Origin: a bacterium
Lineage (GTDB): Bacteria > CAIWAD01
NCBI GenBank assembly: GCA_030429345.1
Contig: JAUIFJ010000004.1
Coordinates: 1-64,000 of the forward strand
Length of the DNA stretch: 64,000 nucleotides
Direction of reading: 5' to 3'
Shown here in pieces: positions 12,178 through 50,450 of this stretch; the stretch's first letter is position 1; the number at the start of each line of letters is the position of its first letter. Both the position numbers and the translations under genes were made by a program. Under the pieces are notes generated by a model. It saw nothing but the letters and a program-made list of their open reading frames with translations, made no database searches and had not been told where the DNA came from.

Positions 12178-12354
12178 GGCCCGGCTTTGCCGGGGAGAGA
12201 CTGTTGGTATAATCGTTCAAGTTCCCGTGGTCTGGCCACGGGATTTGAGCTGTAAAGGCCCGGCGAAGCCGGGGAGAGACTGTTGGTATAATCGTTCAAG
12301 TTCCCGTGGTCCAGCCACGGGATTTTAGCAGTAAAGGCCCGGCTTTGCCGGGCC
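12178..12354. repeat. 79-bp tandem repeat with hairpins and TATAAT boxes
   Basis: Two full units begin at 12178 and 12257, and a partial third at 12336, giving an exact 79-base period. Each unit opens with a hairpin (CCCGGC/GCCGGG; loop TTT, GAA, TTT in the three copies) and then has TATAAT (12208-12213 and 12287-12292). A second hairpin (CCCGTGG/CCACGGG; middle TCTGG or TCCAG) follows. Differences between copies fall in loops while stems stay perfect. The first TATAAT has TTGCCG 15 bases upstream, a poor spacing. The repeat could supply a promoter for the downstream adenosyltransferase or be a selfish intergenic element. Confidence 0.85.
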
Positions 12355-31036: not shown

Positions 31037-31044
31037 AAAGGTGT

Positions 31045-31303
31045 CCGCCTGCGGCGGGATGGATTGAAATGGCTGCCGCATTCTGCGGCAGGTTTATGCA
31101 AGCACCGCTATGCGGTGCCTTGGTGTGCCTGCCGGGGTTGGTGTGTGGGGAACGAAAATGGGCGTGCGCCGGGGCGGCCGCAGGCCGCCCCTACCGGGGG
31201 TGTGTCATTGCCATGATCGGCGAACGCCCTGTCACGCGCCCATCGGGCGCGTGACACGACCACGTAGTGGTCGCTGCCCCCTGGCCGTCGCAGAATGCGA
31301 CGG
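31045..31303. repeat. Hairpin-array repeat, copy A
   Basis: Seven consecutive perfect hairpins, each with a 3-base loop: CCGCC (loop TGC), CTGCCGCA (TTC), GCACCGC (TAT), GGGGCGGCC (GCA), GTCACGCGCCC (ATC), CGACCAC (GTA) and CCGTCGCA (GAA). Non-hairpin spacers such as GGTTTATGCAAG, GTGTGTGGGG and GTGTGTCATTGCCATGATCGG are also shared with copy B. It carries no ORF with coding character and no T-run. Confidence 0.9.
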
Positions 31304-31418
31304 GCACGGGGTCGCATGCTGCGGATTTGAAAACGCGCGCAAAGGCGTGGTGGTTCTGGATGCAAGCTGCTAGAATTGATCAGATCTCAGTCTTTGATGT
31401 TGTTTTCTGGACGATGTG

Positions 31419-31658
31419 ATGTCGCCTACGGTTCTTCGATCCGGTCCTTACCGTGTCTTCTTCTATTCGAATGAAGCCGGGGAGCCTGCTCATGTGCATG
31501 TTCAACGGGAGAAGAAACTTGCGAAGTTCTGGCTTCGCCCAGTCACTCTCGCGGGTTCGACTGGTTTTTCGGCGAAGGAATTACGGCGACTACTGAAGTT
31601 GATTGGCGATCACCGCGAGCAACTCGAGGAGGCCTGGCGTGAGTTCTTTTCCGCTTGA
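31419..31658 (+). CDS. DUF4160-family small protein (putative toxin-antitoxin partner)
   Basis: A 79-aa protein with the DUF4160 pattern SGPYRVFFYSNEAGEPAHVHV, then REKKLAKFWL and a C-terminal helix (AKELRRLLKLIGDHREQLEEAW). DUF4160 genes are commonly paired with DUF2442 genes, and such pairs are thought to be toxin-antitoxin-like modules, though biochemistry is scarce. ATG 31419 follows an in-frame GTG; Shine-Dalgarno is weak. It overlaps the DUF2442 gene by 20 bases. Hairpin-array copy A lies directly upstream. Confidence 0.85.
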   Translation: MSPTVLRSGPYRVFFYSNEAGEPAHVHVQREKKLAKFWLRPVTLAGSTGFSAKELRRLLKLIGDHREQLEEAWREFFSA

Positions 31659-31899
31659 ATTCAAAGCGCTTGCCACACATGTTGTGGTGACAGAGGACGA
31701 GCTGAAGGTGGATCTGGCGGACGGCCGATCAGTTTCAGTTCCCTTGACGTGGTTCCCCAGGCTGCTGGCAGCGACTCCGGAGGCCCGTGCCAAGTGGGAA
31801 CTCCTGGGCGCCGGTGAAGGCATTCATTGGCCCGAGGCGGATGAAGATCTCAGTGTGGCCGGATTGCTAGAAGGCAATCGGGCCCTGGATAGAACCTGA
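31639..31899 (+). CDS. DUF2442-family protein (putative toxin-antitoxin partner)
   Basis: An 86-aa protein. The GTG at 31639 lies six bases after GAGGAGG, inside the 3' end of the DUF4160 gene, and fits the family start. Typical features are VVTEDELKVDLADGRSVSVPLTWFPRL, a ligand-like beta-rich domain, and GEGIHWPEADEDLSVAGLL at the C terminus. Position and overlap suggest co-translation with the DUF4160 partner. Function is inferred only from the pair's common co-occurrence. Confidence 0.88.
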   Translation: MSSFPLEFKALATHVVVTEDELKVDLADGRSVSVPLTWFPRLLAATPEARAKWELLGAGEGIHWPEADEDLSVAGLLEGNRALDRT

Positions 31900-31939
31900 G
31901 TTCTTGTCCCATTTTGTTCACGAGAATTCCAGATCGAGT

Positions 31940-31969
31940 AAAAAAGGGCTGCCAACGGCAGCCCTTTTC
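31940..31969. terminator. Bidirectional terminator between the DUF4160/DUF2442 pair and the LamG gene
   Basis: Stem GGGCTGCC/GGCAGCCC with loop AAC is flanked by AAAAAA on the left and TTTT on the right, so it works for both convergent genes. Confidence 0.85.
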
Positions 31970-31989
31970 GCATTCCCGTGATCCAGGGA

Positions 31990-33003
31990 TTATTTCACAA
32001 GCACCATCGGACGAGTCTCCGAATGGTCCTCGGTTTCCAGGGTGTAGAAATAGGTGCCGCTGCTCAGGCCGTCGGCCTGGAAATCCACATCATGCTGCCC
32101 GCCGGCGGTCAGGCCGTTCAACAGGGTCCGCACGAGCTGGCCCTGGGCGTTGTATACGGACAGATTAGTGAAACCCGTCTCCGGCAGGGTGAAGCGGATT
32201 GTGGTGGACGGGTTGAAGGGATTGGGGTAGTTGTTCAGCAACTCGAAGTGGGTCGCCACTTCATTGGCGCTGGCGACATTGCCGGTTGAGTAGATGTTCC
32301 ACACTTCCTGGTCGGTCAGGGCGTGATCGAAGATCATGAACTCATCGAATACTGCATTTGCCGATGCATATGATGTTTGTGTGTAGTACCAACCAATTGT
32401 AGATGATGCTGATTCATAGGTTCCAATGAAGAAGCCGCCCCCATAATGATAACCACCAACGGCAGCGCCATCTACATAGAGTGTTGCATCCACCTCGTCG
32501 TGAAGAACGGCAGTTACCTGGTACCACCGATTGTACTGCAGAGCTTCATTGGATCTATAGATTCTATAGTTGTCCAGGTTAAATGACCCACCATTTGCAT
32601 ACATAATGACCAGTTCATTGTTATACAGAAAGAAGCGTATACCTGCCATTCCTCCCTGTCCAATTGAATAAGCATTGCATGAAGTAAAGATTTGCTCTTC
32701 CCCGAAAGTGCTGCCTGCATTGCTCGGATTACGCAGCCAAAGACTTATAGAACAAGGATAGGTCAAGGTGCTGTAAAAGTCTTCCACATATATGTAGTCA
32801 AAGTTGCTTGCAAGGTTTAGGGCTGACTCAGGGTTACCAGCATGATCCAAAGCAAAACTTATAGGACCGTTTTGCTCTATGCCATGATGCCCATTCCCAC
32901 TATAGTCCAGGAAATCCCCATCAAATGGATAGTACCCGATCAACTCGGCCTGGGCTGTTTGTATTGAAACGGATGCAGCAAGAAGAAGGAGCAAGGATTT
33001 CAT
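31990..33003 (-). CDS. Secreted LamG-domain protein with C-terminal sorting domain
   Basis: Exported 337-aa protein: signal peptide (residues 1-20), then a LamG/concanavalin-like jelly-roll (about 21-235: LIGYYPFDGDFLDYSGNGHHG, RWYQVTAVLHDEVDATLYVDG, FDEFMIFDHALTDQEV), and a sorting/FlgD-like domain (LLNNYPNPFNPSTTIRFTLPE). The LamG part has much lower GC than the genome while the sorting domain is GC-rich, as if a foreign domain had been joined to a native export tail. A carbohydrate or adhesion role is typical but unproven. The terminator at 31940-31969 serves it. Confidence 0.9.
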   Translation of the reverse strand: MKSLLLLLAASVSIQTAQAELIGYYPFDGDFLDYSGNGHHGIEQNGPISFALDHAGNPESALNLASNFDYIYVEDFYSTLTYPCSISLWLRNPSNAGSTFGEEQIFTSCNAYSIGQGGMAGIRFFLYNNELVIMYANGGSFNLDNYRIYRSNEALQYNRWYQVTAVLHDEVDATLYVDGAAVGGYHYGGGFFIGTYESASSTIGWYYTQTSYASANAVFDEFMIFDHALTDQEVWNIYSTGNVASANEVATHFELLNNYPNPFNPSTTIRFTLPETGFTNLSVYNAQGQLVRTLLNGLTAGGQHDVDFQADGLSSGTYFYTLETEDHSETRPMVLVK

Positions 33004-33231
33004 GACCGTCCTTTCATGGCGGATGTGTGTCTGGGTGCTGGGGATGATTTTGCGTTGACGGTGCGAACCTTCTGCAAAGCGAATGCCAGAAATCGCAAAA
33101 AAAACAATTAGTTAGCACGGATTTTCTGCGGTGCTGGATAGCGTTGTTGTTCAGGGGGGAGGATTCTGAACAGAATTTCCGGAATGTTTCGCGCCGGATC
33201 AGGCGGGTGGAGAATGTGTAGGCCATTTACC
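33004..33231. other. Upstream region of the LamG gene, no gene seen
   Basis: Low-GC, contains the LamG promoter on the minus strand (not confidently placed). A 70-codon minus-strand ORF here has no coding character. It passes into hairpin-array copy D at 33232. Confidence 0.4.
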
Positions 33232-33360
33232 GGGGCGGCCGCAGGCCGCCCCTACCGGGATTGGCGTGCCCAAACCGGGAACCCCCCGTTCCGTGCCCAT
33301 CGGGCACGAAACACGACCACGTAGTGGTCGCCGCCCCCTGGCCGTCGCAGAATGCGACGG
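33232..33360. repeat. Hairpin-array repeat, copy D (partial)
   Basis: Keeps only the last four hairpins of the family: GGGGCGGCC (loop GCA), CGTGCCC (loop ATC), CGACCAC (GTA) and CCGTCGCA (GAA). The second differs from the GTCACGCGCCC stem of copies A-C by paired changes, so the stem is still perfect. Confidence 0.88.
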
Positions 33361-33478
33361 ACCGTAAAAACACACGCACTCGTCGCGATGGGATCCCCAA
33401 AGAGTGTCCAGCCTGCAGGACGTCCCGCGAATCCTTCGAGCCATGCCGCCGAATCAGCTTTTCTCTTCGCACGCCAAT

Positions 33479-33488
33479 CGTTATAACG
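33479..33488. promoter_or_regulatory. Palindrome upstream of higB, candidate HigA operator
   Basis: CGTTATAACG is a perfect 10-base palindrome seven bases before the higB start codon. Type II antitoxins usually bind such sites over their own promoter. Binding is inferred. Confidence 0.4.
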
Positions 33489-33494
33489 GGTGGC

Positions 33495-33788
33495 ATGATA
33501 GCCGACTTTCAAGGCAAGGGGACAGCCGATGTATTCGACGGCCTGGGTTCCAGGGCCGCGCGGCAGTGCTGTCCTGCCGATCTTTGGAAGACTACCCGGC
33601 GCAAACTGGACCAGCTGAACCGCGTCCTGGATGTCTTCGAGTTGTCGATTCCTCCCGGCAATCGGCTGGAGGCCTTGAAGGGCAAGCGACTGGGACAATA
33701 CAGCATTCGCATCAACGAGCAGTACCGCATCTGCTTTCGCTGGGAAGGAGAAGACGCCTATGCCGTCGAGATCACAGACTACCACTAG
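33495..33788 (+). CDS. higB: HigB-type (RelE superfamily) toxin
   Basis: A 97-aa RelE/HigB mRNA interferase homologue: KTTRRKLDQLNRVLDVFELSIPPGNRLEALKG followed by LGQYSIRINEQYRICFRWEGEDAYAVEITDYH, the family's C-terminal core. ATG 33495 follows GGG and a palindrome; longer in-frame extensions upstream run into repeat copy D and are unlikely. HigB toxins cleave mRNA on the ribosome when the antitoxin is lost. The antitoxin gene follows with a 29-base overlap, the toxin-first order typical of hig. Confidence 0.92.
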   Translation: MIADFQGKGTADVFDGLGSRAARQCCPADLWKTTRRKLDQLNRVLDVFELSIPPGNRLEALKGKRLGQYSIRINEQYRICFRWEGEDAYAVEITDYH

Positions 33789-34140
33789 CACGAGCCCTGC
33801 ACCGAAGCCGCGTCGCGGGGCGGGCAAGCTGGTGCAGCGTCGCCTGCCGACAAATCGGCCGCCAACTCATCCCGGAGAGATGCTGCTGGAGGAATTCCTG
33901 GTTCCCAGGGGGATCTCCCAGTCGGCCTTCGCCATCCAGCTGGGAGTATCCTTTCCGCGATTGAATGAGATCATTCGAGGCAAGCGCTCCGTGACCACGG
34001 ATACGGCCCTGCGCCTGGCACGCGTCCTGGGCATGCCTGCCGAATTCTGGCTCGGCCTGCAGCAGGACTGGGATTTGTGGCACGCGCTGCGCGATGAGAA
34101 GACGGACCGGATCATGGAACTGAGTCCCGTTTACGGGTAG
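33760..34140 (+). CDS. higA: HigA-type antitoxin (HTH, XRE family)
   Basis: Antitoxin and autoregulator of 126 aa. An N-terminal basic extension (about 30 residues, RSQTTTSTSPAPKPRRG) precedes the HigA helix-turn-helix: THPGEMLLEEFLVPRGISQSAFAIQLGV, RLNEIIRGKRSVTTDTALRLARVLGMPAEFWLGLQQDWDLW. ATG 33760 lies nine bases after GGAAGGAG within higB. The extension is longer than in most HigA proteins. Array copy B begins six bases after the stop. Confidence 0.93.
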   Translation: MPSRSQTTTSTSPAPKPRRGAGKLVQRRLPTNRPPTHPGEMLLEEFLVPRGISQSAFAIQLGVSFPRLNEIIRGKRSVTTDTALRLARVLGMPAEFWLGLQQDWDLWHALRDEKTDRIMELSPVYG

Positions 34141-34145
34141 GGTGT

Positions 34146-34404
34146 CCGCCTGCGGCGGGATTTATTGAAAAGGTCCGCGGCATTCTGCCGCGGCTTTATG
34201 CAGGCACCGCTACGCGGTGCCTTGGTGTACCTGCCGGTGTTGGTGTGTGGGGGACGAAAATGGGCGTGCGCCGGGGCGGCCGCAGGCCGCCCCTACCGGG
34301 GGTGTGTCATTGCCATGATCGGTGATTTACCGTCACGCGCCCATCGGGCGCGTGACACGACCACGTAGTGGTCGCTGCCCCCTGGCCGTCGCAGAATGCG
34401 ACGG
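34146..34404. repeat. Hairpin-array repeat, copy B
   Basis: Same seven-hairpin order and orientation as copy A. The second hairpin is CCGCGGCA (loop TTC) instead of CTGCCGCA, with matching changes on both sides, and the third has loop TAC instead of TAT. The others are identical to copy A. Copies A and B are direct repeats about 3.1 kb apart that enclose both toxin-antitoxin pairs and the LamG gene. Confidence 0.9.
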
Positions 34405-34440
34405 GCCCGAACAACTCCATGAAATTCTCCCCTGATGAGA

Positions 34441-36360
34441 TCAATCCGCCGTCAGGCGGCCGTATACGCGGGTCAGGGCCGGCACCAGGTCCTCCGGGTG
34501 CTGCAGGATATGCCAGGCGCCCGGCCCGAGCATTTCCGGCAGGTAGTGACGGGCCTGGCGGTCGACGGCGAGGGCGTGGGTGTGGACGCCATCACGTTTC
34601 GCTTCCCTCAGGGCCTGGCGCACATCGGCGATGCCGTGACGGCCTTCGTAGCGGTCATAGTCGTTGGGCTTGCCGTCGCTGATCAGCAGCAGGAGCTTGC
34701 GTCCCTCTTTCCGGGAGACCAGCTCGCGTGTCGCATGGCGCAGGGCCGGCCCGATGCGGGTGTAGCCCTGGGGTTTCAGCGCGCCGAGCCTCTGCGCGGC
34801 CTGGCGCCAGTCCTCGTGCCGCTCCGCGATCGACCAGACGCGGCAATGGGTGCGCGTCTTCGAGGCGAATGCCAGCACCTGGATGCTTTCCCCCAGCCGA
34901 CGACAGGTCTCCCCGAGCACGAAGACCGCCTCGCGGGACAGGTCGAGTACACGCTGTTCGCCCACGTAGCTGTCGCTGGAGAGGGACAGGTCGAGCAGGA
35001 CCGTGACCGCCACCTCGTGACGCAGCCGCGAACGACGGATGTATACTTTCTCGTCGGTCGACTCGCCCGCTCGGCGAAAGGCCAGCTCGTCGCAGAGGGC
35101 GGAGATGTCGATCTCCTCGCCGTCCATCTGCCGGTCCTGCCGCTCCAGCTTCTGGCGGTAGCGCAGCAGTTCGTGTTCCAGCCTACGGATCCGGCGGTCC
35201 TGCAGGCTTCGCTGGCGGGCGGCCCAGGAGGCATCGCCGGTCGGCCAGGGCTGCGGATAGACCCGGCACCAGTCCTTGCGGTAGCGGCGGCGCTTCCCGT
35301 CCCACTCGTCGTAGAGCAGCGCGGGTCCCTCCGGCTCTCCGGCGCTGATGTCGGGAGCCTCCATATCCAGGCGCAGTTCGGTCCGGTAGACCGACTGGGC
35401 CTCCTCCCCGCCGCGGATCACGGTGCGCAGGTCCACTTCCTCCAGCGCCTCCAGGTGCTCGTCGAGCTCGTCCTCGCCATCCGTCTCACGGGCGCCGCCC
35501 TTGTACTCCTCGGCGGTTTCCACCTTCTCAAAGGAATGGATCAGGACATTGTCCTCCTGCTCCTTGCGGTCGAGCTTGACCTGCTCGATGTGATCCTTGG
35601 GCGGCGCCTCGCGTTCCGTGCCGCTGGCCGTGCCCGGCGATTCCAGGTCCGGGTCGATGCCCAGCCCGGCATCCGTGATCAGCGGAGGCAGCACTTCTCC
35701 CCAGGCCTCCAGCGGTGGACTTGCGGATTCGCGAAAGAAAAGCGGGTCGGCGGGCAGGGCCAGGAGCTGTATACGCAGTTCCGCGTCCAGCCAGGGGGAT
35801 TCCCCCTGCAGGGCGCCCAGGCGGCAGCGCTCCAGCAGACGCAAGGCGGCGGAGGAGTCCTCCGGCAAAGTGCGGCCGCTCAGGCAGGCCGCTTCGGCGA
35901 GATCCAGCATCGGGCCAAAGGCCGGAAACTCCTCCAGGAGGATTCGGCGGGCGGCGGCTGTCACACGCAGGGAGGCCAGCAGCCACTCCGCCGGATGGGC
36001 CTCGGGCTCGGGCAGGTCGGCCCCTTCGCCCGGGAATCTTCGCAGGATGGCCGCCAGAGCGCACCGCGTCAGATAGAGCGCCAGGTTCTCTTCTGTTGAC
36101 TTGCCCAATGTCATACGCGCGGGCAGGAGCAGGGTGCCGCCCCTCAATCCTCCCGCGCCTTCGGCTTCCTCGACGCGCAGGGTGCGTCCAGCCAGAAGGG
36201 GAGCGATCACGCGCAGGCGATGGACGACCTCGGCAAGGGAGACCGCTTCCGGGTTCTCCGGCTCTTCTTCGGAAGATGAGGAGAACAGGCCTTGCCAGCC
36301 CCTTCGGAGCAGCCGGAAAAGACGTTCCTCCCAGTCGAAGTCGAAGGAAGGGCTCTTCAT
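34441..36360 (-). CDS. norD: NorD, von Willebrand A-domain protein for nitric oxide reductase activation
   Basis: Cytosolic 639-aa protein. The C-terminal 200 residues are a VWA domain with a MIDAS-type site (VTVLLDLSLSSDS, DxSxS form) and later GYTRIGPALRHAT and LLLISDGKPNDYDRYEG, typical of NorD. The N-terminal part is acidic with long linkers. NorD works with the AAA+ protein NorQ to insert non-haem iron in NorB. ATG 36360 overlaps the norQ stop by one base (TGATG), so the 19 upstream codons are excluded. Last gene of norCBQD. It contains a TGTCACACG 9-mer (35959-35967). Confidence 0.94.
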   Translation of the reverse strand: MKSPSFDFDWEERLFRLLRRGWQGLFSSSSEEEPENPEAVSLAEVVHRLRVIAPLLAGRTLRVEEAEGAGGLRGGTLLLPARMTLGKSTEENLALYLTRCALAAILRRFPGEGADLPEPEAHPAEWLLASLRVTAAARRILLEEFPAFGPMLDLAEAACLSGRTLPEDSSAALRLLERCRLGALQGESPWLDAELRIQLLALPADPLFFRESASPPLEAWGEVLPPLITDAGLGIDPDLESPGTASGTEREAPPKDHIEQVKLDRKEQEDNVLIHSFEKVETAEEYKGGARETDGEDELDEHLEALEEVDLRTVIRGGEEAQSVYRTELRLDMEAPDISAGEPEGPALLYDEWDGKRRRYRKDWCRVYPQPWPTGDASWAARQRSLQDRRIRRLEHELLRYRQKLERQDRQMDGEEIDISALCDELAFRRAGESTDEKVYIRRSRLRHEVAVTVLLDLSLSSDSYVGEQRVLDLSREAVFVLGETCRRLGESIQVLAFASKTRTHCRVWSIAERHEDWRQAAQRLGALKPQGYTRIGPALRHATRELVSRKEGRKLLLLISDGKPNDYDRYEGRHGIADVRQALREAKRDGVHTHALAVDRQARHYLPEMLGPGAWHILQHPEDLVPALTRVYGRLTAD

Positions 36361-37172
36361 CAGAAGGCCATTGCCACCAGATCCATCAGGCCCTGGTTGA
36401 TTTCCCGATCGTCGCACAAAGGTTCGACGATCGCCTGCCGGCAGGCCAGGCGAGGCGGCAGGCCGCCCTGGATCAGGCGGGCGGCGTTGACCAGCAGTCT
36501 CGTCGAAGCGCCCTCCGCCAGGCCGAATTCCTCCAGGTGGCGGAACTTTCCGCCGAGAGTAGCCAGTCGTTTCGCCGTCTCGGCGTCGATGCCGGTCTCG
36601 CCCTGCAGGATCTCGCGCTCCAGTCCGGGTTCCGGCCAGTCGAAAGCCAGGGAGACGAAGCGCTGTCGCGTCGAGGGCTTGAGCTCCTTCAGGCTCTGCG
36701 CGTAGCCCGGATTGCCGCTGACGACCAGCAGGAAGCCGGGTCCGGCCGCCAGCTCCTCGTTGTGCCGCTCGATGAAGAGGCGGCGCCTGTGATCCGTCAG
36801 GGAATGGATCACGACGACGACATCGCTGCGCGCCTCCATCACCTCGTCCAGGTAGAGAATCGCATCCTGCCGGACAGCCCGTGTGACAGGGCCATCCTGC
36901 CAGACGGTCTCGCCGCCGCGCAGCAGGTAGCGCCCCAGCAGGTCCGTCGCGGTCGTGTCGTCATGGCAGCTCACGGTGACCAGCGGCCGGCCCAGGCTCG
37001 CGGCCATGTACTCCACGAAGCGCGACTTGCCGCAGCCGGTCGGACCCTTGAGCAGCAGGGAGAGCCGATTCTCCCAGGCCGCGTGGAAGACTTCCACTTC
37101 GCGGCCGACCGGGCGGTAGAAGGGCGGGGCCTGTTCCTCGAAGGCGGCGAGCGTTCCGGCGGCTGAAGTCAT
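36360..37172 (-). CDS. norQ: NorQ, MoxR-type AAA+ ATPase
   Basis: ATPase of 270 aa that remodels the NO reductase together with NorD. Walker A is GPTGCGKS (from residue 43), Walker B AILYLDEVMEA, with sensor region LLVVSGNPGY and the arginine-containing PSTRQRFVSLAF segment. The length is that of NorQ/CbbQ. It overlaps norB by 4 bases (ATGA) and norD by 1 base, showing tight coupling. Contains a reverse TGTCACACG at 36880-36888. Confidence 0.95.
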   Translation of the reverse strand: MTSAAGTLAAFEEQAPPFYRPVGREVEVFHAAWENRLSLLLKGPTGCGKSRFVEYMAASLGRPLVTVSCHDDTTATDLLGRYLLRGGETVWQDGPVTRAVRQDAILYLDEVMEARSDVVVVIHSLTDHRRRLFIERHNEELAAGPGFLLVVSGNPGYAQSLKELKPSTRQRFVSLAFDWPEPGLEREILQGETGIDAETAKRLATLGGKFRHLEEFGLAEGASTRLLVNAARLIQGGLPPRLACRQAIVEPLCDDREINQGLMDLVAMAF

Positions 37173-38506
37173 CGGACAGCCTCCAGGGCCTCATCCCTGG
37201 GCAGGCCGTAGCGCGTGAAGTTCCAGATGTAGAGCAGGATGCCCGTGGTGAAGAGGCAGGCGGCGAGCACCAGGCCCAGGAAGTGCACTTCCAGGTTCTC
37301 CTGTACTACAAGGAAATCGATGCCCAGCATGCGCTCCAGGTACACCTGTGCCACGCCGGCGACGGCGAAGGCGGCAGTCATCGCCACCATGCCGATGTTG
37401 GCCGTCCAGAAGGCGATCACGGGAATGCGGCCGGTGAAGAGATTGCGCCCGGTCATCTGGGGCATGGCGTAGGCGATCAGGGCCAGGACGAGCATGGCGT
37501 AGGCGCCCCAGAAGGCCATGTGGCCATGCATGCCGACGATCAGCGTGCCGTGCGTGTAGATGTTGACCTGCGGCAGCGTGTGCGCGAAACCGAGGAAGCC
37601 CGCGCCGACGAAGCTCATGATCCCCGTGCCCACGGCCCAGGAGAGCGCGATGCGATTGGGATGCTTGCGCCCGCCCTTGTTGGCCAGGAAGACCGCCCAA
37701 AGCGCCATCGCCAGGAAGGCGAGAGGCTCCAGAGCGGAGAAGAGGCCGCCGACCCAGAGCCAGTATTCGGGAGCACCCATGTAATAGTAGTGGTGTCCGG
37801 TGCCGAGAATGCCGCTGAGAAAAGTCAGGCCGACGATCACGTAGAGCCATTTCTCGATCACCTCGCGGTCGATGCCGGTGAGCTTGATCAGCAGGTAGGC
37901 CAGGATCGAACCCATGATGAGTTCCCAGACGCCCTCGACCCACAGGTGCACGACCCACCAGCGGAAGTAGCTGTCGAAGACATGGTTCTGGAAGGTCCAC
38001 ATGCCCGGCAGGTAGAGCAGGGCCGCCGAGAGCAGGCCGCCGAAGAGCACCAGGCCGGTGGTCGTGAAACGCCGTCCGCGCCAGACCGTGACACCGATGT
38101 TGAAGATGAAGGCCAGCACATTGACCACGACCAGGTAGTCGAGGGGGCGCGGGATCTCAAGGAACTTCCGCCCTTCCCACCAGTTGAAATGGAAGCCCAC
38201 GAGGGCAACGAGCGAGACGAGAACCAGCGACCCCCATTGGATCACGGCCAGCTTCACGCTGTATAGTTCGCGCTCGGCCTCCTCCGGGAGAATGTAGTAG
38301 GCCGCCCCCATGAAGCCGGCCAGCAGCCAGACGACGAGCAGATTGGTGTGCGTCGCCCGTGCGACATTGAAGGGAATCCAGTCGTGGAGGCCGTCGAGGC
38401 CCATGCGGGCAAAGCCCATGATGAAGCCGTATACCAGCTGCAGGACGAAGAGCGCCATGCAGGTGGCGAAGAAGAGATAAGCGACTTTCTGGGATTTGTA
38501 CTTCAT
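37169..38506 (-). CDS. norB: Nitric oxide reductase large subunit NorB (cNOR)
   Basis: Catalytic haem b/b3-FeB subunit, reducing two NO to N2O in the inner membrane. The 445-aa, 12-helix protein has the haem-ligand His53 (ARATHTNLLVVW), HLWVEGVWE (FeB His and Glu), GHHYYYMG, the ALEPLAF glutamate, and HGTLIVGMHGHMAFWG with the two histidines for haems b and b3. There is no fused quinol-oxidising domain and NorC is next door, so it is the cytochrome c-linked type. Translational overlap with norQ. Confidence 0.96.
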   Translation of the reverse strand: MKYKSQKVAYLFFATCMALFVLQLVYGFIMGFARMGLDGLHDWIPFNVARATHTNLLVVWLLAGFMGAAYYILPEEAERELYSVKLAVIQWGSLVLVSLVALVGFHFNWWEGRKFLEIPRPLDYLVVVNVLAFIFNIGVTVWRGRRFTTTGLVLFGGLLSAALLYLPGMWTFQNHVFDSYFRWWVVHLWVEGVWELIMGSILAYLLIKLTGIDREVIEKWLYVIVGLTFLSGILGTGHHYYYMGAPEYWLWVGGLFSALEPLAFLAMALWAVFLANKGGRKHPNRIALSWAVGTGIMSFVGAGFLGFAHTLPQVNIYTHGTLIVGMHGHMAFWGAYAMLVLALIAYAMPQMTGRNLFTGRIPVIAFWTANIGMVAMTAAFAVAGVAQVYLERMLGIDFLVVQENLEVHFLGLVLAACLFTTGILLYIWNFTRYGLPRDEALEAVR

Positions 38507-38510
38507 GCTG

Positions 38511-38969
38511 CTACTCCTTCACGCTCGCTTGGCCGCTGTCCTTTATCCACTCCCGCAAGGGCGGATCCTTGGGGAAGCCGTTGGTGTCGATTCCCTGGAC
38601 CCAGCGGAACCAGGCGATCAGCCCGTCGATCTCCTCGTCGGTGAAATCGTAGGCCACCATCTTGCGGCGACCGGGGTAGAAGGCCTGGGGATTGCGGATG
38701 AAGGCGCGGATCCACTCGGGATGCTTGCGGTCGAGCACATTCGTCAGTTCGGGGGCGTAATACGCTCCTTCTCCGAGAATCGTATGACACCCCATGCAGT
38801 TGTTCTCGTCCCACAGTTTCCGTCCGAGCAGCACCTGCTCGTCCATGGCGGCCATATGGGTCCGCGCCGGAGTCTGCCGGATCGTGTCGAGGGTCAGCCA
38901 GAGAAAGATCAGGCTGAAGAGGATCGTGCCTCCCAGGAAGAAGAGGCGGGCCTGGGATTTGGAAAGCAT
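38511..38969 (-). CDS. norC: Nitric oxide reductase cytochrome c subunit NorC
   Basis: Membrane-anchored monohaem cytochrome c, 152 aa, that passes electrons to NorB. One N-terminal helix (RLFFLGGTILFSLIFLWLTL) is followed by the haem site CMGCH in DENNCMGCHTILGEGAYYAPE and a Met ligand in GRRKMVAYDF. AGGAG lies eight bases before the ATG. It is the first gene of norCBQD; the divergent Rrf2 regulator and two dyads lie upstream. Confidence 0.96.
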   Translation of the reverse strand: MLSKSQARLFFLGGTILFSLIFLWLTLDTIRQTPARTHMAAMDEQVLLGRKLWDENNCMGCHTILGEGAYYAPELTNVLDRKHPEWIRAFIRNPQAFYPGRRKMVAYDFTDEEIDGLIAWFRWVQGIDTNGFPKDPPLREWIKDSGQASVKE

Positions 38970-39036
38970 GCGGCGACTCCTGACTTGGATCAGTCCTGCA
39001 TCGGGGAACCAGGACCGATATTCAAGGTTGCAGAAA

Positions 39037-39070
39037 GATCAATAGTGGATGTTTCTATCCAGAATTGATC
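39037..39070. promoter_or_regulatory. Operator dyad 1 in the nor/rrf2 divergent region
   Basis: Two 14-base arms around GTTTCT (39051-39056) match as an inverted repeat at 12 of 14 positions: GATCAATAGTGGAT on the left; the right arm reads GATCAATTCTGGAT on the other strand. It contains the core TGGAT-N6-ATCCA, the same form as dyad 2. The outer ATCAA/TTGAT could alternatively be FNR/DNR half-sites. It lies about 70 bases upstream of norC. Confidence 0.7.
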
Positions 39071-39084
39071 CCGGAGTCTATTAA

Positions 39085-39104
39085 ATTGGACTAGAATGTC
39101 CAAT
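39085..39104. promoter_or_regulatory. Operator dyad 2 next to the Rrf2 start
   Basis: ATTGGAC, six bases (TAGAAT), then GTCCAAT: a perfect 7-base inverted repeat ending just before the AGGAG of the rrf2 gene. TAGAAT itself could be the -10 element. The core TGGAC-N6-GTCCA matches dyad 1; centres are 41 bases apart, about four helical turns. Autorepression is the natural reading. Confidence 0.7.
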
Positions 39105-39114
39105 AGGAGTGCCC

Positions 39115-39537
39115 ATGATTTCCAATACGGCGGAGTATGCCCTGCGGCTGGTCGTCCGTCTCGCCGAAGAGCCTGGCCAGGCCCTGCCCGCGCAGGAGGT
39201 GGCCCGCGAGATCCAGGTGCCGGCCCAATACCTCTACAAGATCATCCAGGGGCTGAGCCGGGTCGGCCTGCTGCGGTCGCGCCGGGGGGCCGGAGGAGGA
39301 GTGTCGCTGCAAAAGACTCCGGCCGAGATCAGCCTCTACGAGATCGTCACCGCCGTCTCGCCCATCAAGCGGATTCACAGCTGTCCGTTGAACCTGCCGG
39401 AACACGAGAACGAACTTTGCAGCCTGCACGCGACCCTGGACGGGGCCGCCGCACAGGCTGAAGGCTGTTTTCGAAGAACGAGTCTGCAGGACCTGCTGGA
39501 CCAATCCGGCAAGAAGATGTTCGGAGAAGGCGGATGA
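39115..39537 (+). CDS. Rrf2-family (NsrR-like) transcriptional regulator
   Basis: A 140-aa winged-helix regulator: MISNTAEYALRLVVRLAE, recognition region AQEVAREIQVPAQYLYKIIQGLSRVGLL, wing SRRGAGGGVSL. Three cysteines, C90, C102 and C118, could hold an iron-sulfur cluster, but their spacing (11 and 15 residues between) is wider than in IscR/NsrR (5 and 5-6). Position opposite norCBQD suggests it senses NO and represses nor. ATG 39115 follows AGGAG; an upstream GTG at 39109 overlaps that site. Confidence 0.93.
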   Translation: MISNTAEYALRLVVRLAEEPGQALPAQEVAREIQVPAQYLYKIIQGLSRVGLLRSRRGAGGGVSLQKTPAEISLYEIVTAVSPIKRIHSCPLNLPEHENELCSLHATLDGAAAQAEGCFRRTSLQDLLDQSGKKMFGEGG

Positions 39538-39774
39538 TCCCGCCTGCGGCGGGATGGATGGAAAGGATCTGCCGCATTCTGCGGCAGGTTTATGCAAGCA
39601 CCGCTACGCGGTGCCTTGGTGTGCGTTCCGGTGTTGGCGGGTTGAAACGAGGTCGGGCGTGCGCCGGGGCGGGGTGGCATGACCACAACGGCAAACCCCC
39701 CGTCACGCGCCCAACGGGCGCGTGACACGACCACGTAGTGGTCGCTGCCCCATAGCCGTCGCAGAATGCGACGG
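39537..39774. repeat. Hairpin-array repeat, copy C
   Basis: Begins at the last base of the rrf2 stop codon. Hairpins: ATCCCGCC (loop TGC), CTGCCGCA (TTC), GCACCGC (TAC), the fourth hairpin lost by deletion, GTCACGCGCCC (loop AAC instead of ATC), CGACCAC (GTA), CCGTCGCA (GAA). Order and orientation are as in copies A and B. Confidence 0.9.
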
Positions 39775-39796
39775 ACCCTGATCAAATCGAATACTC

Positions 39797-50168: not shown

Positions 50169-50450
50169 AAAAGTATGAAGTACGAAGTATGAAGTGAAGA
50201 AACCCTGCAGCACCACCAAAACCCTACGCGGTGCCACCGCCTCTATAAATACTCCCTACCGCATAAAGCCGCAAAGCGGCGACAGAATAGTAGCCGCGGG
50301 TGCCAACCCGCGGAGACGGTCAAAAAACCACACCGCATCCAACACCCATGTGTCACAACCAGGAGTGCTTCCCACGCCCCAAAGATAGGCCCCCGCCTTC
50401 GCGGGAGCCTGCCCCTGCGAAGGCAGGGGGCGACGGAACGGGGCGGGTGC
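50169..50450. repeat. Hairpin-rich intergenic region (degenerate array, E)
   Basis: No gene seen. After a short near-repeat (AAGTATGAAGTACGAAGTAT) there is CTACGCGGTGCC (50224-50235), which matches half of the third hairpin of arrays A-C. Further hairpins follow: GCCGC (loop AAA, 50268-50280), CCGCGGGT with a 4-base loop (50294-50313) and two C-rich stems at about 50388-50430. It looks like a decayed or different relative of the hairpin arrays. Confidence 0.6.

Follow-up and report, generated by a model that had tools for sequence, protein, structure and literature searches.

Repetitive extragenic palindromic sequences (REPs), the REP doublets forming hairpins (REPINs), REPtrons and tyrosine transposases with double palindromic terminal repeats are already known. 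Enzymes of this superfamily bind folded single-stranded DNA hairpins, and the site of the cut is chosen via a tetranucleotide 5' of the hairpin (PMC6006769, PMC8266576). In the REP of Stenotrophomonas maltophilia, which has a GTAG foot, a perfect 8-bp stem and a 3-nt loop, a mismatch in the stem affects or almost eliminates cleavage, while an exchange of letters has a milder effect (PMC8266576). TnpA_Y1 proteins of subclass 1.2, with DH[IV]H, WQ and Y---Q--HH motifs in about 148 residues, are found mainly in Cyanobacteria and Bacteroidetes and carry a 'no' for REP in Table 1 of Quentin et al. 2018 (PMC6006769). Here we analyze four arrays of small hairpins, copies A to D, between positions 31,045 and 39,774 of the first 64,000 nucleotides of contig JAUIFJ010000004.1 (the window) from a bacterium of the GTDB lineage CAIWAD01. 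We consider it likely that the arrays are REPINs with inverted double-hairpin ends, spread by a Y1 HUH transposase of the subclass 1.2 kind, for which the gene at locus L035 of the same genome is the closest candidate; the element is probably a small parasitic DNA element.

Re-derivation of the hairpins by script, together with an alignment, confirmed copies A, B and C and the partial copy D at the positions given in the earlier note, with the same order of hairpins (hp1 to hp7). All hairpins of A-D have 3-nt loops, as had been claimed. The description of up to seven perfect hairpins holds for A and B, with seven each, while C has six, having lost hp4, and D four; the perfect stem of hp1 is only 5 bp long in A and B and 8 bp in C. 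The variation in the loops (TAT/TAC and ATC/AAC) and the matched changes on the two sides of the stems are real, with CTGCCGCA versus CCGCGGCA in hp2 and GTCACGCGCCC versus CGTGCCC (the latter in D) in hp5. Over the matched parts only, A, C and D are 92%, 75% and 81% identical to copy B. The window holds 32 stems of at least 7 bp with a 3-nt loop, 24 of them within the 8.7 kb from 31045 to 39774, against a mean of 7 and a maximum of 12 in mononucleotide shuffles of the whole window. Copies A-C are extragenic, and each starts at a stop codon or no more than about 5 nt from one, a point absent from the earlier note: A starts about 5 nt past the stop codon of a DinB-family gene, B adjoins that of a helix-turn-helix (HTH) antitoxin-like gene, and C starts inside that of an Rrf2-type gene.

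Two features of the arrays had been overlooked. Read on the other strand, hp7-hp6 repeat hp2-hp3, the two pairs being inverted copies of one double-hairpin unit. In this unit the outer hairpin has 8 bp and a TTC loop, and the inner one has 7 bp and a TAC-like loop. The CTATATGCAG-like linker between them measures about 10 nt (11 nt at the right ends of A-D). The (A/G)TAG foot next to the outer hairpin is degenerate, and about 6 nt separate it from the inner hairpin. The layout of an array is thus a left double hairpin, a spacer and an inverted right double hairpin. The feet vary: L006 has GTAG, copy C has ATAG, and A, B and D have CTGG at the right end. In A-C the two ends of a copy differ while each hairpin remains self-complementary, which implies that the constraint acts on single hairpins and not on a long inverted repeat. 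The other feature is hp4, which on the minus strand reads GTAG followed by GGGCGGCC tgc GGCCGCCC, a single-hairpin REP without an inner hairpin and of a type distinct from the unit. A REP of the hp4 sequence also lies beside L012, a Y...NP transposase gene near 170 kb on the same contig (C11); the stop codon of L012 is the TAG of the adjoining GTAG, and its protein matches NCBIfam REP_Tyr_transpos below the curated cutoff (54 vs 80 bits). Copies A-D are composites and form a local subfamily: they also carry hp4, an ordinary GTAG REP with one hairpin that is linked to a transposase other than L035, the class-2 REP-associated tyrosine transposase (RAYT) of L012. In the BLAST search of the genome, hp1 and hp5 had no copies beyond A-D, and no search aimed at either was made. 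The features are listed below, where R1 denotes a covariance model of 22 half-units picked from perfect hairpins.

31041..31305, plus strand: copy A, composite REPIN hp1-hp7, from the re-derived hairpins and alignment A5; hairpins at 31045-31057, 31073-31091, 31102-31118, 31171-31191, 31230-31256, 31257-31273 and 31285-31303
31073..31118, plus strand: copy A left double hairpin, outer hp2 and inner hp3 (R1 match 31071-31118, 66.2 bits)
31171..31194, minus strand: copy A hp4, single-hairpin GTAG REP of the other type, as beside the class-2 RAYT L012
31230..31256, strand not assigned: copy A hp5, 12-bp stem
31257..31303, minus strand: copy A right double hairpin, inverted, inner hp6 and outer hp7 (R1 match 31257-31305 minus, 59.4 bits)
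33230..33362, plus strand: partial copy D, hp4-hp7 only (R1 match 33314-33362 minus); hairpins at 33232-33252, 33292-33308, 33314-33330 and 33342-33360
34141..34407, plus strand: copy B, composite REPIN hp1-hp7; hairpins at 34146-34158, 34175-34193, 34202-34222, 34273-34293, 34332-34356, 34358-34374 and 34386-34404
34175..34222, plus strand: copy B left double hairpin, outer hp2 and inner hp3 (R1 match 34173-34220, 76.1 bits)
34273..34296, minus strand: copy B hp4, GTAG REP
34358..34404, minus strand: copy B right double hairpin, inner hp6 and outer hp7 (R1 match 34358-34406 minus)
39537..39776, plus strand: copy C, REPIN without 23 nt of hp4; hp1-hp3 and hp5-hp7 at 39537-39555, 39569-39587, 39598-39614, 39702-39726, 39728-39744 and 39756-39774
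39569..39614, plus strand: copy C left double hairpin, outer hp2 and inner hp3 (R1 match 39567-39614)
39728..39774, minus strand: copy C right double hairpin, with hp6, an ATAG foot at 39752-39755 and hp7 (R1 match 39728-39776 minus, full foot motif)

The association with a transposase gene comes from elsewhere in the genome, in which PF01797 is found at ten places. Five of the proteins (L032-L036) share DH[VM]H and Y...Q..HH motifs, at 38-42% identity to L035. The L035 gene (C9:115641-115985) is an intact open reading frame of 158 residues with DHVH and Y...Q..HH, and its product matches the NCBIfam IS200 transposase above the cutoff; it has the motifs of the TnpA_Y1 subclass 1.2 kind, an assignment made by motifs and length and not by a tree with published sequences. 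L035 sits between two inverted double-hairpin pairs, all four ends of which are R1 matches. The arrays look like REPINs because such a pair stands on each side of this intact, IS200-like Y1 HUH gene. L034 adjoins double hairpins of different sequence and similar plan.

Searching the genome with R1 gave 41 half-units at E <1e-6 over many contigs, of which 35 are distinct and 22 are the training sequences, matched by construction; BLASTN gave 35 partial matches. Many half-units stand as inverted pairs and some in tandem, the inverted pairs with a spacer including A, B, C, L006, L165, L169, L172 and others, and several copies elsewhere come after terminator-like hairpins. The dispersal over many contigs, the inverted pairs and the flanking of a Y1 transposase gene bear out one of the possibilities raised in the earlier note, that of a non-autonomous mobile element. 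In three genomes of the same family, from a sister genus, R1 had no matches. A DNA search of 40 relatives gave one 45-nt match in G032, around a lone 6-bp hairpin in unrelated sequence, which we took as chance.

The stems are conserved as pairs. The 22 training sequences have 98.2% of cells paired, with changes on both sides in 8 of 15 pairs (46 cells), at most 58% paired when the structure is slid and a covariation score of 0.387 against 0.104 when shuffled, although these statistics are flattering because the sequences were chosen from perfect hairpins. The 35 distinct half-units have 525 pair cells, comprising 504 Watson-Crick pairs, one G.T and 20 other mismatches, some of which are artefacts of fixed-length parsing (the outer hairpin of L162 has a 5-nt loop). 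Three C.A cells, all in one pair, read G.T on the opposite strand, and wobble amounts to about 1% or less on either strand; this near-absence of G.T fits single-stranded DNA hairpins better than RNA. When copy B is folded as single-stranded DNA, the seven hairpins are present among weaker helices, with a z-score of -7.7 and none of 200 shuffles as stable.

We propose that the enzyme would bind the folded single-stranded hairpins and then cut and join beside them, with the TAG foot serving as a putative guide for the cut. Its need for paired stems would keep the hairpins perfect while the stem letters drift; compensatory stem change is what the cleavage rule of S. maltophilia, where pairing matters more than letters, predicts. 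On either strand, a 5' tetranucleotide stands at the inner hairpin of one end (GCAG/GCAA) and at the outer hairpin of the other (ATAG). We might guess that these two hairpins correspond in function to the two ends, left and right, of IS608.

A similar arrangement recurs in other phyla. GTDB genome contigs were scanned with an alignment of L032-L036, and the best 80 loci by similarity, near relatives included, were taken. Y...Q..HH is present in 76 of these 80 proteins, which have a median length of 150 residues, features that match TnpA_Y1 subclass 1.2 (PMC6006769). Within 600 nt of the genes there are 208 perfect hairpins of at least 7 bp (26.9 in shuffles and 42.5 in far flanks, scaled), 72 with TAG/CTA feet (0.45 and 1.1) and 41 double hairpins (0.65 and 0.5). 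A strict search for two perfect neighboring hairpins found them at 24 of the 80 loci; it missed inner stems of 5 bp. A looser finder looked within 600 nt of the gene for [inner hairpin]-N(2-10)-NTAG-[outer hairpin] and gave 91 motifs, spread over 40 of 86 loci; shuffle sets gave 0.15 on average, with a maximum of 1 among 20 sets. These counts are descriptive because the finder was designed with the same loci already in view; the simpler first counts agree with them in direction. The motif is inverted on the two sides of the gene in 23 loci, and its feet are GTAG (52), ATAG (30), TTAG (7) and CTAG (2). By phylum, it occurs in 13/15 loci of Verrucomicrobiota, 12/26 of Planctomycetota, 5/9 of Acidobacteriota, 3/12 of Bacteroidota, 2/6 of Chlamydiota and 1/1 of Myxococcota, and single AT-rich matches (at L153 and L160, for example) are likely to be chance. 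The protein tree shows the motif clustered, though spread over the main branches (18 changes vs a shuffled mean of 28.5). In the present genome the looser finder detects it at L032 and L036; L033 has palindromes on both sides and no motif by this finder. Y1 genes of class 2 and of other kinds, taken as a control from this genome and its relatives, gave 2 full motifs in 16 loci. The flanks of Escherichia coli rayT were rejected as a control, since the finder gave nothing there because E. coli REP stems are bulged. Away from the gene, searches that asked for the outer hairpin and foot only gave 2-18 matches per genome, with at most one mismatch, in several verrucomicrobial and planctomycete genomes, and the reversed control pattern gave none. 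At some loci that lack the motif, hairpins of this sort stand beside a different foot (CAG in L103, L132 and L159; AAAG in L125 and L135). Five others (L087, L097, L115, L129 and L144) have no TAG-footed motif and are flanked by other perfect 3-nt-loop hairpins, for example GCGCTCC tcc GGAGCGC, which is possibly another layout of the same system.

Several explanations compete with spread by such an enzyme. That the arrays are a structured non-coding RNA, as the earlier note allowed, or an element of 3' untranslated regions conserved for its RNA fold seems very unlikely to us. A, B and C do begin at or near stop codons and would form strong hairpins if transcribed, and RNA folding predicts structures for A and C that exceed shuffles in stability (z -5.2 and -6.3); those folds nevertheless rearrange several of the hairpins, only one of the 525 pair cells is G.U, the comparison with Rfam that had been proposed returned no known family at the gathering score or even at E <=1, and the same double-hairpin unit flanks a DNA transposase. 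If the units were sites of cassette recombination, direct copies would let the genes between them be gained or lost, which would account for the gene pairs enclosed by D and B (HigB/HTH antitoxin-like) and by A and D (DUF4160/DUF2442). Many loci of the units nonetheless have no cassette, and what the units are specifically associated with is the Y1 transposase; this is the least credible of the alternatives, and the recombination-substrate role suggested earlier is open only as a side effect. We also think it improbable, if less so than either of these, that the repeats are decayed ends of former full IS200-like insertion sequences and never moved as REPINs. Inverted pairs in other genomes stand 110-150 nt apart and face the same way as the flanks of the gene do, as though a gene between them had dropped out, whereas the R1 pairs here have the opposite orientation, with the outer hairpins outside, and share their spacers as units.

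Template switching between the hairpin arms in replication is a more serious possibility, although we lean against it; it would replace enzyme selection as the source of the compensatory changes and leave the element a REPIN. The stems change on both sides at once, one-sided intermediates are rare, and small perfect hairpins are known substrates for quasi-palindrome correction. Such switching leaves unexplained the conserved feet and linkers and the association with Y1 transposase genes, and L036-type repeats retain a C.C stem mismatch in many copies. Against REPINs spread by an L035-type enzyme, in turn, weigh the CTGG feet of the right ends of A, B and D, the lack of any place for hp1 and hp5 in the explanation, the design of the motif finder after inspection of the loci it was applied to, and the absence of the motif from about half of the subclass 1.2-like loci. 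In addition, the R1 REPINs are read in one genome, and we infer transposition, cleavage and binding by L035 from sequence.

Compared with the described systems, the genes here share with subclass 1.2 (PMC6006769) the DHVH, WQ and Y...Q..HH motifs, a length of about 150 residues and few, divergent copies per genome; they differ in being flanked by double-hairpin REPs and in occurring mainly in Verrucomicrobiota, Planctomycetota and Acidobacteriota. With the S. maltophilia REPtron (PMC8266576) and with REPINs in general (PMC3116915) the system has in common short extragenic perfect 8-bp hairpins with 3-nt loops, in part of the repeats a 5' TAG foot, inverted pairs, and repeats that flank and apparently depend on a Y1 HUH enzyme. 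In contrast to those systems, each half has a second, inner hairpin beyond the foot, which in many cases reads ATAG or is degenerate, and the enzyme has Y...Q..HH and not Y...NP. The TIRYTs are likewise Y1 genes flanked by two-palindrome repeats, some of them dispersed (Di Nocera et al. 2013, PMC3733652), but belong mostly to subclass 2.1, another enzyme group, according to Quentin et al.; the likeness of their repeats to those here is read from the published description. IS200/IS605 elements (IS608, ISDra2) share the enzyme superfamily (by PDB matches), subterminal hairpins and a guide tetranucleotide 5' of the hairpin, and differ from this system in its low copy number and high divergence of genes and its dispersed non-autonomous repeats. 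GC-rich hairpins in dispersed pairs are known from mitochondria too; these double-hairpin elements are organellar and offer an analogy only.

The earlier note recognized no described REP family with this plan. REPINs are a described kind; what did stand is that, in the literature compared (figure contents and Bertels et al. 2017 aside), we found no TAG-footed double-hairpin half-site and no REPs assigned to subclass 1.2. The automatic REP search of Quentin et al. required GTAG or GTGG, so that ATAG cases may have escaped it, and most of their sample of subclass 1.2 came from phyla with few motifs in our counts too (PMC6006769); our result extends theirs more than it contradicts it. We put the chances at about even that two hairpins around a TAG guide are the cognate substrate of subclass 1.2 in at least three phyla, an architecture undescribed for any Y1 enzyme. 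If so, subclass 1.2 would join the lineages that use REPs while standing closer to IS200 transposases than known RAYTs do, and would be a candidate link from insertion sequences to domesticated REPtrons. It is an open question how transposases came to be tamed into spreaders of REPs, and an IS200-near lineage with its own REP-like populations would be a natural intermediate. The guide tetranucleotide between two hairpins would be a new, testable substrate design, and the compensatory stems would serve as naturally occurring mutants that show what these enzymes recognize in folded DNA.

The genome holds a second population of about 45-55 L036-type repeats, mostly inverted pairs some 150-200 bp apart; the count is approximate because some listed matches are two readings of one palindrome. 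This pattern is sparse in most planctomycete genomes, local clusters excepted. One copy lies in the window:

50268..50313, plus strand: L036-type double-hairpin REP, GCCGC aaa GCGGC, 9 nt, GTAG, CCGCGGGT gcca ACCCGCGG

Another double-hairpin repeat is possibly represented at 12178-12335, where a 79-nt unit stands twice in tandem (91% identical), each with CCCGGC ttt GCCGGG and CCCGTGG tctgg CCACGGG. At L162 and L163, R1-type half-units lie inside repeats of about 220 bp near contig ends (C8 and C88), a setting that suggests longer tandem repeats that broke the assembly.

Among the genes between the arrays, those for the HigB-like toxin and the HTH antitoxin-like protein occupy 33261-34140, between the direct-orientation copies D and B, and recombination between D and B could delete the pair. 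The DUF4160 and DUF2442 genes between A and D overlap in tandem at 31416-31899. They are followed at 31990-33003 by a lectin-like protein that ends in a sorting domain of the Por secretion system, a sign suggestive of type IX secretion.

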